This document shows, in pieces, positions 46,813-52,953 of a stretch of 64,000 nucleotides of DNA. The notes beneath the pieces are model-generated. The model did not search any database. It was not told where the DNA came from and saw only the letters and a program-made list of their open reading frames with translations. The first letter of the stretch is position 1. Each line of letters begins with the position of its first letter. The DNA is from Aquimarina macrocephali JAMB N27 (GTDB lineage Bacteria > Bacteroidota > Bacteroidia > Flavobacteriales > Flavobacteriaceae): NCBI RefSeq assembly GCF_000520995.1, contig NZ_JACA01000024.1, forward strand, positions 1 through 64,000, read 5' to 3'. Both the position numbers and the translations under genes were made by a program.

Positions 46813-47670
46813 ATGGAGGTATTAGAAATCATATTGTTGATTTTGGCATATTCCCTAATTATCATCGCATTATTTTTGGAAGTAATTTGCTATACAAAAA
46901 ATATTGAAACGCTTGAAACTATATACTTTACGATTTCATTGCTTTTACTAATTGTAGCGTTAACGATTACCTATTTTTTTAAACCTTTTAATTCAGACAG
47001 TACTAATATTTTTATTTTATTAGCGATGATATTGGTTGCACTTACTACCCCTTTGCATATTCTAGAAGAGAGGCGTCATACTATAAAACCTATTTTCAAA
47101 AAGTTGCTAATAGCTTTTTCGGTGATGTTAACCTTACTCATTATTTCAGGACACTTTATTAAAATATTGAATTTTTTACAATATGTAGTAGCACTGTTTT
47201 TAGGAATTTCGGTCGTTATGTCTATGATTCTGATAAGAATAACCAAACCTAAAGTAAACATTGTACATCGTGAAAAAATGGAGCGATATATTGCTATTGC
47301 CGTTCTTATTCTGATTCCACTTTCTTTACTAACCAATTATGTTGTAGACCTAAATGGTATAAACACAAAAATTGGGTTTACACTTCCATTGATTTTTATT
47401 GTACTCGCAGGAAGCAAATTATGGAGTGATATAGAACGACTGTCTCTTTTTAAACCTAAAAATACGGTGAAAGAGCAAAACCTAATTAATTATTCCTTGA
47501 CCAATAGAGAAAAGGAAATCGCCTTACTTCTTATTAAGGGAAATACATATAAAAAAATATCAGAGCAGCTATTTATATCAATTCCTACTGTAAAAACACA
47601 CGTTTCCAATATTTACAGAAAATGCAAGATAAATAACAGGATAGAACTTATTTCGTTGCTGTCTAGCTAG
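46813..47670 (+). CDS. Membrane-anchored LuxR-type transcriptional regulator
   Basis: The 285-residue protein has seven hydrophobic segments (about 5-25, 32-52, 60-78, 90-110, 117-135, 155-175, 180-200), then a C-terminal GerE/LuxR helix-turn-helix (LTNREKEIALLLIKG, IPTVKTHVSNIYRK). Such 7TM-LuxR fusions occur in Bacteroidota. No phospho-receiver is present, so signal transfer would be direct. The palindrome at 47700 lies just after its stop and before an outer membrane protein gene. Confidence 0.8.
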   Translation: MEVLEIILLILAYSLIIIALFLEVICYTKNIETLETIYFTISLLLLIVALTITYFFKPFNSDSTNIFILLAMILVALTTPLHILEERRHTIKPIFKKLLIAFSVMLTLLIISGHFIKILNFLQYVVALFLGISVVMSMILIRITKPKVNIVHREKMERYIAIAVLILIPLSLLTNYVVDLNGINTKIGFTLPLIFIVLAGSKLWSDIERLSLFKPKNTVKEQNLINYSLTNREKEIALLLIKGNTYKKISEQLFISIPTVKTHVSNIYRKCKINNRIELISLLSS

Positions 47671-49153: not shown

Positions 49154-49169
49154 TGACATAGGGTTGTCA
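49154..49169 (+). promoter_or_regulatory. Operator-like inverted repeat TGACATAGGGTTGTCA
   Basis: TGACA and TGTCA half-sites flank a six-base centre. The same 16 bases occur at 52217-52232. A -7-like TATTTTTA lies 12 bases downstream, and the VOC gene starts at 49212. I infer a repressor or activator site controlling both the VOC/quinone-reductase genes and the GyrI-like gene. Confidence 0.55.
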
Positions 49170-49211
49170 TTCCTTCACTTTATTTTTACTTCAAAATAAA
49201 TAGAAGTAGAA

Positions 49212-49553
49212 ATGAAAAATAATAAAATCAACTTTATAGAATTACAGGCATTAGATTTAAATGAAGTCAAAAAATTCTACGGCAACACTTTTGGTTGGAC
49301 TTTTACAGATTATGGAGATCAGTATTGTGACTTCCACCAAGCGGGAATTGATGGAGGATTTGCCAAAGTAGAAAAAATTAGTACAGGAGGTACTCTAGTC
49401 GTTTTATATCATGATGACTTATCACATGCTTTAGAAAATGTACAAAAAAATGGTGGAAAAATATCTAAGGAAGTATTTTCCTTTCCTGGGGGAAGTCGAT
49501 TTGAATTTATTGACCCTAGCGGAAATAAACTAGCAGTTTGGACTGATAAGTAA
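49212..49553 (+). CDS. VOC-family (glyoxalase-like) protein
   Basis: The 113-residue product has one vicinal-oxygen-chelate module pair: NFIELQALDLNEVKKFYGNTFGW at the start, and GGSRFEFIDPSGNKLAVW at the end with the late Glu. Metal ligands are His or Glu in these positions, but the N-terminal His is absent, so catalysis is uncertain. It is followed 22 bases later by a flavodoxin-like quinone reductase, and it has the shared operator upstream. Confidence 0.85.
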   Translation: MKNNKINFIELQALDLNEVKKFYGNTFGWTFTDYGDQYCDFHQAGIDGGFAKVEKISTGGTLVVLYHDDLSHALENVQKNGGKISKEVFSFPGGSRFEFIDPSGNKLAVWTDK

Positions 49554-49574
49554 ACACGATATAAAAAACATACA

Positions 49575-50180
49575 ATGAAAAAAACATTAGTAGTAAGCTA
49601 CGCACCAAGAAAGGGTTCTTATACAAAGCAATTGGTGGATGAATTTATTAAACTAGCCGATGGTAAAACAGAAATTACATTTTTAGATTTAGTGGCTTCT
49701 CCACCAGATTTATTACTTGGCGATAATCTAAATTTGATATTATATGGAGGGCAACCAGAATACACAGACGAAGAAAAGAAAAGACTTTCTAATCATTTTC
49801 AATTAATACAACACGTATTAGATGCGGATCATATTGTATTGGCTTCTCCTATGTATAATTTCTCTTTGCCAGCTACAGTAAAAGCCTGGGTAGATACTAT
49901 AGTAGTTACTGATAAAACATTTGAAATTACCGAAGATGGTAGTTTTAAAGGGCTTTGTGAAGAAAAAAAAGCATTAATATTAGCAGTGGCTGGGGGTGAT
50001 TACTCAGAAGAAACGACTCATGAATACTTTTCTCCAACTATTAAAAGAAATTTTGAATTTATAGGGATTCCTTCTGAGCAAATTTCTGCTTTTGGAGTAG
50101 CTCAATACCCAGAAAAAGTAGATACCATTATTTCAAATGCAAAAGCTGAAATTTCGAAAGTAGTAGGGCAGTGGTATTAA
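49575..50180 (+). CDS. NAD(P)H-dependent quinone reductase/azoreductase-like flavoprotein
   Basis: The 201-residue protein is a flavodoxin-fold oxidoreductase: YAPRKGSYTKQL is the FMN phosphate loop, and ASPMYNFSLPATVKAWVDTI is the family's isoalloxazine-binding signature of the AzoR/NQO group. It is soluble. Coupling to the VOC gene suggests a role in aldehyde or quinone detoxification. Substrate not known. Confidence 0.87.
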   Translation: MKKTLVVSYAPRKGSYTKQLVDEFIKLADGKTEITFLDLVASPPDLLLGDNLNLILYGGQPEYTDEEKKRLSNHFQLIQHVLDADHIVLASPMYNFSLPATVKAWVDTIVVTDKTFEITEDGSFKGLCEEKKALILAVAGGDYSEETTHEYFSPTIKRNFEFIGIPSEQISAFGVAQYPEKVDTIISNAKAEISKVVGQWY

Positions 50181-50200
50181 ACCATTATCTGACTGGTGTA

Positions 50201-50246
50201 ACATAATTGAAAGTTTTTAATCTATATATAAAACTTTCAATTATGT
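50201..50246. promoter_or_regulatory. 17-bp perfect inverted repeat covering the start codon of the M16 gene
   Basis: ACATAATTGAAAGTTTT (50201-50217) is fully complementary to 50230-50246, with a 12-base loop. The right arm contains the ATG at 50243. In RNA the hairpin would hide the start codon and its upstream region. A terminator of the reductase operon is less likely because no T-run follows on the plus strand. A translation-control element or a binding site is possible. Confidence 0.5.
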
Positions 50247-51583
50247 CAAAAAAACGATCTAAAGTAGTATTTTTTTGTTCATTACTCTTTCATGTTGTCA
50301 TTGTCTTAAGTTCATATGGTCAAACGGATACACTGTTATTAAACTATGAACAGTATACCTTAAAAAACGGGCTTGATGTTATATTACAACCCGATTCTAA
50401 TGTCGAAGATGTTTCTGTAGAATTTTGGCTTCGTAAGGGAATTAGCATGGATAAACCTAGTCAGTATGGTTTTGCCCATTTTTTTGAACATATGATGCCG
50501 TTTGGTATAATGGATAGTCTTAAACGTGCTCAATTGAAAACCTATAGAACAGGGAGTAATGCACAGGTTAAAAAAGATTATACCCGGTTTTATGTAAAAG
50601 TAAAGCCAAAAGGAGTAGGCCCTGCTTTAGAAATGGCAGCCGGACGATTAATGGCTGGCACTGATCGTATTACAGAAAAGCGAATAGAATTTCAGAGAAA
50701 AAGAGTACTATCTGAAATAGACAGAAATGCCAAAAATCCACAATGGAGCGCACCAGGAGGGATGGCGATTTATAAAGGCACTTTTGGAAAAAACCATCCT
50801 TACGGTAGTAGTGGATATGGGTTAATCGAAAATAACAAGAACTTTAAACTAAAAGAGTTTAAAGAACGGTATAACAAAATTGTATATGCAGATAATACAG
50901 TTCTCTTTCTAGTCGGTAATTTTGATGTTGAAGAAGCTAAAAAACAAATAGAGACATATTTCAGAAACCTTCCGTCAAAAGAAAAAGATCACAAGATTAT
51001 TAAACCCACAAAGCATGTAGAAGCAAATATAACAATGAAAGCTCCTCACCCTAAGAATACTATACAAACAATGGTATTCTCCTGGGCAGTACCCAAATGG
51101 GGATCCATAGATGATAGTACTTTAAAACTTATAGCAAGCATACTCGATATTCGTCTTAAAGACAAAAGTCGTTTTCCAGAATCCTTTATAAAAACTTCGG
51201 TTTCTACAGATATGTATGAGTATGCAGGGCAGTTCGCAATACGCACTACTTTTGCTGCTGTAAAAGATAGTACACAAATAGAAAACCTTGTTTTGGATAA
51301 AGTAAACGAATTTATAGAAACTGGAGTTACAGAAGCAGAACTAAAAGATGCCAAACAAAATGAAGTTAATGACATAAAAGAAATGCAACAACGATTAGGT
51401 TTTCAATGGAGTAGGACAGAACTGTTAGGAGAAAGCTTTTTGTTTACAGGAAACCCGGGGTTTTATGTTAAGAGGCTTGAAAAACAATTGCAACTAACCA
51501 GAGAAGATGTAAAAAAAGGAGCAAAAAAATGGCTAAAGCGAAAACCGTTTAGAGTATTATTTGTTTCAGACAAAAAGGAATAA
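50243..51583 (+). CDS. M16-family zinc metallopeptidase (single-domain type)
   Basis: From the ATG at 50243 the protein has 446 residues with a signal peptide (SSYGQTD). The inverted zinc motif HFFEH (within FAHFFEHMMPFG) and the later Glu in VLSEIDR form the pitrilysin active site. The C-terminal part is the usual R/Y-type half without a second motif. Size equals the M16B-type half-molecule subunit; a partner gene is not adjacent, so it may homodimerise. The upstream in-frame TTG at 50207 lies within the left arm of the inverted repeat and is not favoured as start. Confidence 0.85.
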   Translation: MSKKRSKVVFFCSLLFHVVIVLSSYGQTDTLLLNYEQYTLKNGLDVILQPDSNVEDVSVEFWLRKGISMDKPSQYGFAHFFEHMMPFGIMDSLKRAQLKTYRTGSNAQVKKDYTRFYVKVKPKGVGPALEMAAGRLMAGTDRITEKRIEFQRKRVLSEIDRNAKNPQWSAPGGMAIYKGTFGKNHPYGSSGYGLIENNKNFKLKEFKERYNKIVYADNTVLFLVGNFDVEEAKKQIETYFRNLPSKEKDHKIIKPTKHVEANITMKAPHPKNTIQTMVFSWAVPKWGSIDDSTLKLIASILDIRLKDKSRFPESFIKTSVSTDMYEYAGQFAIRTTFAAVKDSTQIENLVLDKVNEFIETGVTEAELKDAKQNEVNDIKEMQQRLGFQWSRTELLGESFLFTGNPGFYVKRLEKQLQLTREDVKKGAKKWLKRKPFRVLFVSDKKE

Positions 51584-51635
51584 GTATTTTTCATGAATTC
51601 GATAGTATTTTGTTCTGGTATTTTAGCAGTGCATT

Positions 51636-52190
51636 ATGAACAATAAAAAAGAAATGCTGATACAAAACTATCAACCAGGTTGGACACAAGATTTTAATAG
51701 TATCAAAGAAGTGATAAAAGAGACGCTTTGGGATACAGAAATAACAATCGAACATGTCGGAAGTACAGCAGTTAAGGACTTAGCTGCAAAACCTATTATT
51801 GATATCGATATTGTCTACGGTAAAAACGTGGCTTTTGAAACAATAAAAGAGGGATTAGAAAAACTGGGGTATTATCACAATGGAGACCAGGGGATAAAAG
51901 AAAGAGAAGCTTTTAAGCGTGAAAATTCGAATAAGAAACATCAAATATTAGATTTCATCACACATCACCTTTATGTTTGTCCGATTCATAGTAAAGAATT
52001 GCAAAGACATATACTGTTTAGAGATTATTTGATAAAGAATACAAACGAAAGAGAAGCGTATCAAAAAATTAAACTCGAAATCGCCAAAAAAGCAAACCAA
52101 GATCAAAAAGTATATGCAAAACTGAAAGAGACTATGGCAAAGGAGTTTATTGAATCAATCCTTGAAAAAGCCATAGAAAAGAAAGCATGA
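51636..52190 (+). CDS. GrpB-family protein
   Basis: The 184-residue product matches GrpB/UPF0157 from residue 10: WTQDFNSIKEVI, then IEHVGSTAVKDLAAKPIIDIDIVY, a nucleotidyltransferase-like core with the spaced Asp residues. It continues with KHQILDFITHHLYVC and RDYLIKNTNEREAY. Members are putative nucleotidyltransferases or dephospho-CoA-kinase tail homologs; activity is not established. It is monocistronic, 52 bases after the M16 gene. Confidence 0.88.
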   Translation: MNNKKEMLIQNYQPGWTQDFNSIKEVIKETLWDTEITIEHVGSTAVKDLAAKPIIDIDIVYGKNVAFETIKEGLEKLGYYHNGDQGIKEREAFKRENSNKKHQILDFITHHLYVCPIHSKELQRHILFRDYLIKNTNEREAYQKIKLEIAKKANQDQKVYAKLKETMAKEFIESILEKAIEKKA

Positions 52191-52216
52191 AATACAATCA
52201 TGTATATAAATACTGT

Positions 52217-52251
52217 TGACATAGGGTTGTCATCATTACACTTTACTTTTG
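52217..52251 (+). promoter_or_regulatory. Second TGACATAGGGTTGTCA operator and -7 box
   Basis: The 16-base inverted repeat at 52217-52232 equals the one at 49154. A -7 box TACTTTTG follows at 52244-52251. The next gene starts at 52324 and encodes a GyrI-like binding protein. Identity of both the repeat and the spacing to a promoter supports a shared regulator. Confidence 0.6.
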
Positions 52252-52323: not shown

Positions 52324-52953
52324 ATGAAGCATGAATGGAGAAAAAAAGAAAAAGGAGTGTATCTACCCAAAAACACACCCGAAATCATTGAAATTCCCGA
52401 ATACAAGTTTCTTACTATCGAAGGAGAGGGTAATCCTAATAGTGAATTCTTTTCAGAGCATATTGGTGTACTGTATGCGGTTTCATATGGGATAAAAATG
52501 GGATTAAAAAAAGGAACTGTACCCAAAGGATATTTTGATTATACCGTTTACCCGCTAGAAGGTGTTTGGGATATTACTGAAGAAGCAAAGAAAGCATATA
52601 AAGGTACTATTAATAAAGATGACCTGGTTTTTAAATTAATGATCAGGCAGCCTGACTTTATCGATGATGAATTAGCGAGACACATGATTGACCAGACAAA
52701 GAAAAAGAAGCCTCATGTGTTATTAGAAAAAGTAAAATTTGAGAAAATAACAGAAGGTAAGTGTATTCAAATGATGCATCTGGGAAGTTATGACAACGAA
52801 CCCGAAAGTTTTAAGATAATGGAAGAATTTGCCGATAAAGAAAATCTCTATAGGCCATCTAAAGTACATAGAGAAATTTACCTGTCTGATTTTAGAAAAG
52901 TACCTATCGTAAAACTAAAAACAGTTTTACGATTTAAAGTAGTTTCAAAATAA
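52324..52953 (+). CDS. GyrI-like small-molecule-binding protein
   Basis: The 209-residue protein resembles stand-alone GyrI-like/AraC effector-binding domains. It begins KHEWRKKEKGVYLPKNTPEIIEIPEYKF and contains a two-fold pattern of LTIEGEGNPN and KCIQMMHLGSYD, ending in LSDFRKVP. No DNA-binding part exists. Such proteins bind or hydrolyse small cyclic or hydrophobic compounds. It is controlled by the operator shared with the VOC gene. Confidence 0.85.
   Translation: MKHEWRKKEKGVYLPKNTPEIIEIPEYKFLTIEGEGNPNSEFFSEHIGVLYAVSYGIKMGLKKGTVPKGYFDYTVYPLEGVWDITEEAKKAYKGTINKDDLVFKLMIRQPDFIDDELARHMIDQTKKKKPHVLLEKVKFEKITEGKCIQMMHLGSYDNEPESFKIMEEFADKENLYRPSKVHREIYLSDFRKVPIVKLKTVLRFKVVSK

Follow-up and report, generated by a model that had tools for sequence, protein, structure and literature searches.

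Described WYL-domain regulators and the present locus

WYL-domain transcription factors that activate stress genes are already known (PafBC, DriD and SiwR), and here we describe a candidate regulon of this kind from a 64,000-nucleotide stretch of Aquimarina macrocephali JAMB N27 (positions 1 to 64,000 of contig NZ_JACA01000024.1, hereafter the window), in which the same 16-bp operator lies in front of a VOC/azoreductase-like gene pair and in front of a GyrI-like gene. The two window sites are probably operators of a five-promoter regulon under the sole WYL factor of the cell, which would bind as a homodimer and activate. No described Bacteroidota WYL regulon was found in the literature searched, which consisted of open-licence papers, mostly as titles and abstract beginnings.

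SiwR of Mycobacterium smegmatis (PMC10693628), a WYL activator of the dinS operon that is itself activated by genotoxic agents, is the nearest known system in biology. As in SiwR, a target in A. macrocephali lies directly beside the WYL gene and the palindrome is located just upstream of the −10 element (here the −7 box). SiwR targets a DinB-superfamily protein and the neighbours of its relatives are glyoxalase-like, which is matched here by a VOC protein in the window and by DinB proteins behind the site in relatives. Unlike SiwR, which carries a WCX domain, uses a 19-bp imperfect palindrome, is actinobacterial and has one known operon, the present system comprises five promoters with a sigma-ABfr-type −7 box and a regulator without WCX.

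PafBC of mycobacteria (PMC11804915, PMC6789036, PMC5656591) shares with the present regulator the arginines of the recognition helix and most of those in the groove for single-stranded DNA (ssDNA), and shares with the present promoters the −26 element, which is contacted by PafB (PMC11804915). The PafBC promoter motif is tTGTCRgtg-8nt-TAnnnT (PMC5656591), and its TTGTC-N12-TA spacing is identical to that found here; all five A. macrocephali sites read TTGTC-A-N11-TA, with the gtg part absent. PafB mutants in R46, R50, R181, R208 and F210, alone or combined, lost function or ssDNA binding, the F210 mutant being poorly expressed, and Y196 of the WYL triplet is required for ssDNA binding. However, PafBC is a heterodimer with WCX domains, its motif is asymmetric with one half-site, and its targets are recA and DNA-repair genes.

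DriD of Caulobacter crescentus (PMC12340889, preprint) activates from GAC-N7-GTC sites over the −35 region at a constant distance to the −10 box, with its helix-turn-helix (HTH) domains flanking the −35 element and sigma region 4 on the other face. The present system resembles it in having a WYL factor, a palindrome over the −35/−33 region at constant distance to the −10/−7 box, and poor −35 boxes. It differs in that 8 rather than 7 bp separate GAC and GTC, in the outer bases, and in its targets, since the named targets of DriD are didA, bapE, recJ and dnaG rather than detoxification enzymes. BrxR/CapW (PMC9122601) has the same fold as the WYL regulator described here (Z 11-13) and binds inverted repeats; BrxR is a repressor located by defence genes, whose 11-bp repeats are separated by a 5-bp spacer, with the main pair placed after the promoter.

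Operators and −7 boxes of the five-promoter set

Comparison of sequences establishes the identity of the operators, their 11-bp distance and single orientation to the −7 box, their conservation before orthologues and their association with the WYL family. The features of the window are as follows.

49154-49169, + strand: operator 1, TGACATAGGGTTGTCA, exact match
49181-49188, + strand: −7 box TATTTTTA, TAnnTTTG with one mismatch, 11 bp 3′ of operator 1
49212-49553, + strand: VOC/glyoxalase-fold protein of 113 amino acids (aa), PF00903, E 4.5e-10; first gene of a presumed operon
49575-50180, + strand: flavodoxin-fold, flavin mononucleotide (FMN)-dependent azoreductase-like protein, 201 aa, PF02525, E 7.3e-33
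52217-52232, + strand: operator 2, TGACATAGGGTTGTCA, exact and composite match
52244-52251, + strand: −7 box TACTTTTG, 11 bp 3′ of operator 2
52324-52953, + strand: GyrI-like small-molecule-binding protein, 209 aa, PF06445, E 3.5e-14

The preliminary description had reported the same 16-base inverted repeat in two promoters; exact copies do stand at 49154 and 52217, but the 16 bases are not fully paired, the operator being an inverted repeat of 5+5 bp (TGACA/TGTCA) flanking six unpaired bases. The −7 box that had been recognised in one promoter only is present as TACTTTTG in the second and also, as TATTTTTA, in the first, at the same 11-bp distance. A window scan with TGACATAGGGTTGTCA allowing up to 3 mismatches gave 3 matches against 0.63 expected, the third of which (55894, 3 mismatches) is at chance level, and found no such site at the M16 peptidase and GrpB genes between the two operators, as had been stated for them. 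The azoreductase-like gene starts 21 bp past the VOC gene, and the top NCBIfam relatives of its product are FMN-dependent NADH-azoreductases, all under their cut-offs; the NCBIfam scan of 8 proteins returned no name above cut-off.

In the whole genome (6.06 Mb in 164 contigs, the window being part of contig C24), the extended operator TGACATAnnnTTGTCA was found at exactly five sites, all intergenic. The three sites outside the window are listed below.

C14:197219: third exact TGACATAGGGTTGTCA copy, after the WYL gene and before a small protein
C12:94508: TGACATAnnnTTGTCA site before a 368-aa PF08713 protein
C23:28863: TGACATAnnnTTGTCA site before a 152-aa Cass2/GyrI-like protein

A TAnnTTTG box lies exactly 11 bp 3′ of all five sites, with one mismatch at the first site of the window only, so that each has a −7 match of at least 5/6 at this spacing. 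The genes that follow encode the VOC and azoreductase-like proteins, the GyrI-like protein, the Cass2/GyrI-like protein, the DNA-alkylation-repair-like protein and the WYL-adjacent small protein, with a PF08713 DNA-alkylation-repair-like gene 117 bp past the small-protein gene on C14. None of the five sites is spanned by an open reading frame (ORF) of 100 aa or longer, and the C14 copy shares only the stop codon of the WYL gene. The box at 11 bp is missing from all three remaining genomic TGACA-N6-TGTCA sites, two of which fall within ORFs of that length. A small detoxification regulon whose regulator lies outside the window had been proposed, and both the five-promoter set and the sole WYL gene, which ends on the operator copy of C14, agree with that proposal. 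The outcome named beforehand as fatal to it, sites mostly within genes or unrelated to promoters, did not appear, as 5/5 extended sites are intergenic and promoter-linked.

Specificity of the operator pattern

The genome-wide search for TGACA-N6-TGTCA that had been recommended earlier was uninformative in its loose form, with 8 sites against 6 for the reversed control, and TGACATAnnnTTGTCA with up to 2 mismatches was not enriched either (129 matches against 201). In contrast, exact TGACATAnnnTTGTCA gave 5 sites against 1 for the control, and together with the −7 box at 11 bp it was discriminating. Because they showed no enrichment over reversed controls, loose patterns were dropped as genome-wide markers in favour of exact matches to the extended and the composite pattern. 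Sites that match TGACATAnnnTTGTCA with 1-2 mismatches were also rejected as regulon members, as 0/25 loci read from among the 129 genomic matches have a −7 box at 11 bp.

The composite pattern TGACA-N6-TGTCA-N11-TAnnTTTG was detected at 106 sites in 45/66 Aquimarina genomes, with none for its reversed control, and at 38 sites (4 of them from A. macrocephali itself) in 29/395 class genomes, which bear 20 family labels, against 1 reversed hit. Two of the class-level sites (L245 and L252) are not followed by a convincing target and may have arisen by chance. Plain TGACATAnnnTTGTCA is only moderately tied to the WYL gene among 249 Flavobacteriaceae genomes, 19/31 carriers having the gene against 76/249 overall (Fisher 2.3e-4). 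At 11 bp, a −7 box scoring 5/6 or higher accompanies 15/17 fetched plain sites from genomes with a WYL homologue and 0/13 from those without, where plain TGACATAnnnTTGTCA looks like background. The signal resides in exact TGACATAnnnTTGTCA and, most of all, in the constant placement of the −7 box relative to it.

The sole WYL protein of the genome

The PF13280 search obtained one protein in the genome, of 238 aa, with a winged HTH and a WYL domain (C14:196505-197218), and thus no paralogous partner. It scores 55.1 bits for PF08279 (HTH_11; cut-off 25) and 57.6 bits for PF13280 (cut-off 21.8), and with both HTH and WYL above their curated cut-offs it is a WYL-domain transcription factor. The protein is 100% identical to one of Aquimarina sp. 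Aq78, its closest solved sequence is PafBC (E 1.5e-9), and its predicted structure has a mean predicted local distance difference test score (pLDDT) of 83.8. R34 and R38 of the recognition helix, together with R165, R192 and F194, are invariant in 46 homologues, and a positively charged ligand groove, with arginines in and around the beta4/beta5 loop, is completed by R188 and R195 (each in 45/46) and R198 (37/46). In the alignment to PafB, R34/R38 correspond to R46/R50, R165/R192/F194/R188/R195 to R181/R208/F210/R204/R211, and R198 to R214. Cys185, by the ssDNA-groove loop, is invariant as well (46/46), and a Cys also stands there in the alignment of A. aurescens PafBC; it could add direct redox or electrophile sensing.

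Within the ~3 kb read around the WYL gene on C14, a membrane protein is encoded upstream, and the small protein and a PF08713 protein downstream. The upstream gene, whose product is cation:proton antiporter-like by eye, runs into the WYL gene, its stop codon overlapping the WYL start codon (L002:785-787), and no exact operator was found upstream of the WYL gene in the stretch read. At the other end, the first three bases of the C14 operator, TGA, are the WYL stop codon (L002:1501-1503), a start point shared by several close relatives. Operator-adjacent WYL proteins at five class-level loci (L236, L239, L240, L241 and L257) have lengths of 313-320 aa, and this kind of operator therefore occurs with either length.

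Promoter geometry and mode of action

As the composite search itself demands a −7 box, spacing was assessed on sites obtained by protein-based and plain-motif searches. The −7 box matched at 5/6 or more with 11-bp spacing in 80/96 non-redundant operator-like sites, while every other spacing was represented by at most 4, and 14 of the 16 exceptions came from genomes without a WYL homologue. In orientation-neutral searches (n=114), the asymmetric core was forward with respect to the −7 box at 90 sites, reverse at 0 and neither at 24. This count replaces an earlier one (95 forward and 1 reverse of 121), which included sites fetched with the asymmetric pattern. The finding that 0/121 promoters carry TTG 17-23 bp before TA was discarded as evidence, being nearly forced by the operator that fills that stretch.

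The −7 element of Flavobacterium johnsoniae spans −12 to −5 (PMC6847099), and on this scale the operator occupies −39 to −24; one half-site falls near −37 and the other near −26, so that the two enclose the −33 region. Transcription is predicted to start some 4-5 nt past the −7 box, near 49193 and 52256 in the window. Under the WYL protein, which most likely is a homodimeric activator of an electrophile/genotoxic-stress regulon, the two HTH domains of the dimer would sit on TGACA (about −37) and TGTCA (about −26) and straddle the −33 region. The dimer would then activate by placing the primary sigma holoenzyme on promoters that lack a proper −33 box, as PafBC and DriD do. With less certainty, its activity may be switched on by a nucleic-acid damage signal, namely ssDNA binding to the WYL domain, and the regulon may raise small enzymes that dispose of electrophiles and alkylated DNA. 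Such supposed enzymes are here the VOC, azoreductase-like, GyrI/Cass2-like and DNA_alkylation proteins and, in relatives, DinB, RidA and alpha/beta-hydrolase proteins. The preferred model is an activator that senses nucleic-acid damage, because of the DriD-like layout, the PafBC-like TTGTC-N12-TA and the conserved PafB-type residues, and from these analogies we infer that ssDNA would be its signal. The complete picture, in which a WYL dimer recruits the housekeeping polymerase through the −26 half-site and serves a Bacteroidota regulon against electrophiles and alkylated DNA, is put forward tentatively and with considerable doubt.

If it holds, one conserved WYL mechanism would be common to Actinobacteria, Alphaproteobacteria and Bacteroidota, a minimal homodimer without WCX would act on the divergent sigma-ABfr and its TAnnTTTG box, and the regulon would counter electrophiles and alkylated DNA rather than carry out classical SOS repair. 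Because the spacing is identical to that of the PafBC motif, whether WYL activators share one mode of sigma capture becomes a question that can be put directly to the test in a third phylum, whose sigma factor is unusual. The letters alone yield a candidate regulator, an operator, a fixed promoter geometry and a target list for a Bacteroidota WYL stress regulon, and a regulator can be proposed for poorly understood small detoxification-type families (GyrI/Cass2-like, VOC, DinB and DUF4345).

It is conceivable, though rather unlikely, that the WYL dimer is instead a repressor which covers −39 to −24, blocks sigma and is released by a ligand, so that detoxification genes are derepressed in the manner of BrxR. 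BrxR, which shares the overall fold (Z 13.0), represses through inverted repeats (PMC9122601), the operator overlaps the −33 region, and the −33 box is weak in this group anyway. However, many positions would serve a repressor, and the main sites of BrxR itself lie just downstream of its predicted promoter, whereas spacing (80/96 at 11 bp) and orientation (90 to 0) are fixed here, like the distance in DriD promoters; this is the main argument against a plain repressor. Further, the spacing from half-site to box is that of the PafBC activator motif, and the WYL factors of genotoxic stress have so far been activators (PMC10693628).

Association of the operator with the WYL family

The sole WYL protein of the cell very probably controls the five promoters, as is strongly suggested by the distribution of both partners in 66 Aquimarina and 395 class genomes (homologues at E<=1e-20). 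In Aquimarina, the composite pattern was found in 44/52 genomes with a WYL homologue and in 1/14 without (Fisher 1.2e-7); among genomes at least 90% complete, the counts were 44/52 and 0/6 (Fisher 7e-5). In the class, 28/29 composite carriers have a homologue against 76/395 genomes overall (Fisher 1e-20 without the A. macrocephali genome). The suggestion in the preliminary description of a linked regulator such as a WYL or MerR protein is thereby supported for WYL, since the sole PF13280 protein ends on the third operator copy and its presence correlates with the site in both sets of genomes. Among 38 loci fetched by WYL homology, 36 contain TGACA-N6-TGTCA followed after 11 bp by a −7 box matching at 5/6 or more, and in 34 of these 36 the site comes directly behind the WYL gene. 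In 24/38 of the loci, all from Aquimarina, the next genes are homologues of those for the small protein and the PF08713 protein; in L094 the PF08713 gene is ~2 kb further on, and in L121 the site and both genes are 5-7 kb away.

Could a different regulator, for example an unlinked MerR, GntR or MarR protein, bind the sites with WYL genes as mere neighbours? Since the site is flanked by the WYL gene and its neighbour, their closeness taken by itself might be fortuitous; among the regulators of the genome, the survey covered the WYL proteins. Nevertheless, the WYL gene lies within ~1.5 kb of the site in 19/29 class-level loci, where both its side and its orientation vary, 9/10 of the remaining loci come from genomes with a homologue elsewhere, and the sites are nearly absent from Aquimarina genomes without one; moreover, the GAC...GTC half-sites resemble those of DriD and PafB. 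A different regulator is accordingly considered very improbable.

Several observations count against activation by a WYL dimer as proposed. The matches of the predicted fold are tied between BrxR (Z 13.0), PafBC (12.9) and DriD (12.8), so they do not separate activator from repressor. The position of PafB Y196 is I180 here and is Tyr in only 4/46 homologues, and there is no WCX domain, as in the model one helix (216-229) follows the WYL domain before a low-confidence tail; lacking both WCX and a partner paralogue, the regulator is not filed as an orthologue of PafBC or SiwR. PafBC is a heterodimer that does not bind promoters without RNA polymerase (PMC11804915), so a shared spacing may not mean the same contacts, and the missing −33 box is weak evidence because it is hardly visible in F. 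johnsoniae promoters generally. Across genomes, no exact composite was found in 8/52 (Aquimarina) and 48/76 (class) WYL-bearing genomes, and two WYL loci lack an exact site: L098 has a variant that differs in two letters, and in L117 no similar sequence occurs within 300 bp. Conversely, two carriers have no homologue at E 1e-20, one from the class (G386) and one from the genus (G284, 89% complete).

Conservation before orthologues and target genes

Footprints were scored in the genus as 19 fixed letters (operator and box) upstream of homologues. Of 19 DNA_alkylation orthologues, 14 have a perfect footprint, 4 have one change and 1 is without a site. At least 17/19 letters are kept in 29 of 30 fetched Cass2 orthologues, the other having none; the search matched 45 places, 15 of which came without loci and were not scored. 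For VOC homologues, 18/19 letters are kept in 9/15, all 9 with a TAnnTTTA box; the misses are five homologues of ~50-55% identity and an 81% second copy in one genome. Operator 1 is retained letter for letter in 9/10 fetched VOC homologues of 81-100% identity, its own copy counted, and in 0/5 of 50-55% identity. The spacers between operator and box vary between copies and between orthologues while the operator remains constant, and selection therefore appears to act on the operator and its distance to the box.

Three exact 16-mer copies in one genome and a doubled promoter in G284 might suggest that the repeat was duplicated by chance or belongs to a mobile promoter element that was copied from gene to nearby gene. 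This reading can practically be dismissed, because spacers differ while the operator is kept, the arrangement recurs under 20 class family labels before unrelated genes, and reversed controls gave 0 (Aquimarina) and 1 (class). In the fragmented G284 genome, one operator-promoter occurs twice before a single Cass2 gene (L160:1346 and 1501, reverse strand), 155 bp apart.

The genes behind 121 sites, which include close relatives, most often encode the WYL-adjacent small protein (36), Cass2-like proteins (32), DNA_alkylation proteins (18, four of them probably second genes) and the GyrI-like family of the window (12, its own site included). These clusters are approximate, since for six sites (window 49154, L039, L115, L122, L131 and L204) the longest-ORF rule chose an ORF that lies over 350 bp downstream. 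Pfam assigned seven further target representatives to DUF4345, DinB, Lumazine_bd_2, RidA-type, alpha/beta hydrolase, VOC-type and OmdA, and gave no match for three representatives, including the WYL-adjacent small protein. At class level, inspection by eye shows DinB and VOC-like proteins repeatedly. A gene reading as uvrB, 114 bp after a composite site in L256, is the sole classical DNA-repair gene seen behind such a site.

Upstream of five Cass2 homologues (L318, L320, L321, L322 and L323), a variant operator, TGACATAnnnTTGACA, was observed with a changed right half-site and the usual −7 box. Four of these five genomes have a WYL gene of ~44-49% identity next to Cass2, and the variant may mark a shift in specificity.

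Elsewhere in the window, a 434-aa protein without a Pfam match adjoins a protein (46813-47670) that combines a LuxR-type HTH with a weak, below-cut-off match to the 7TMR-DISM membrane domain.

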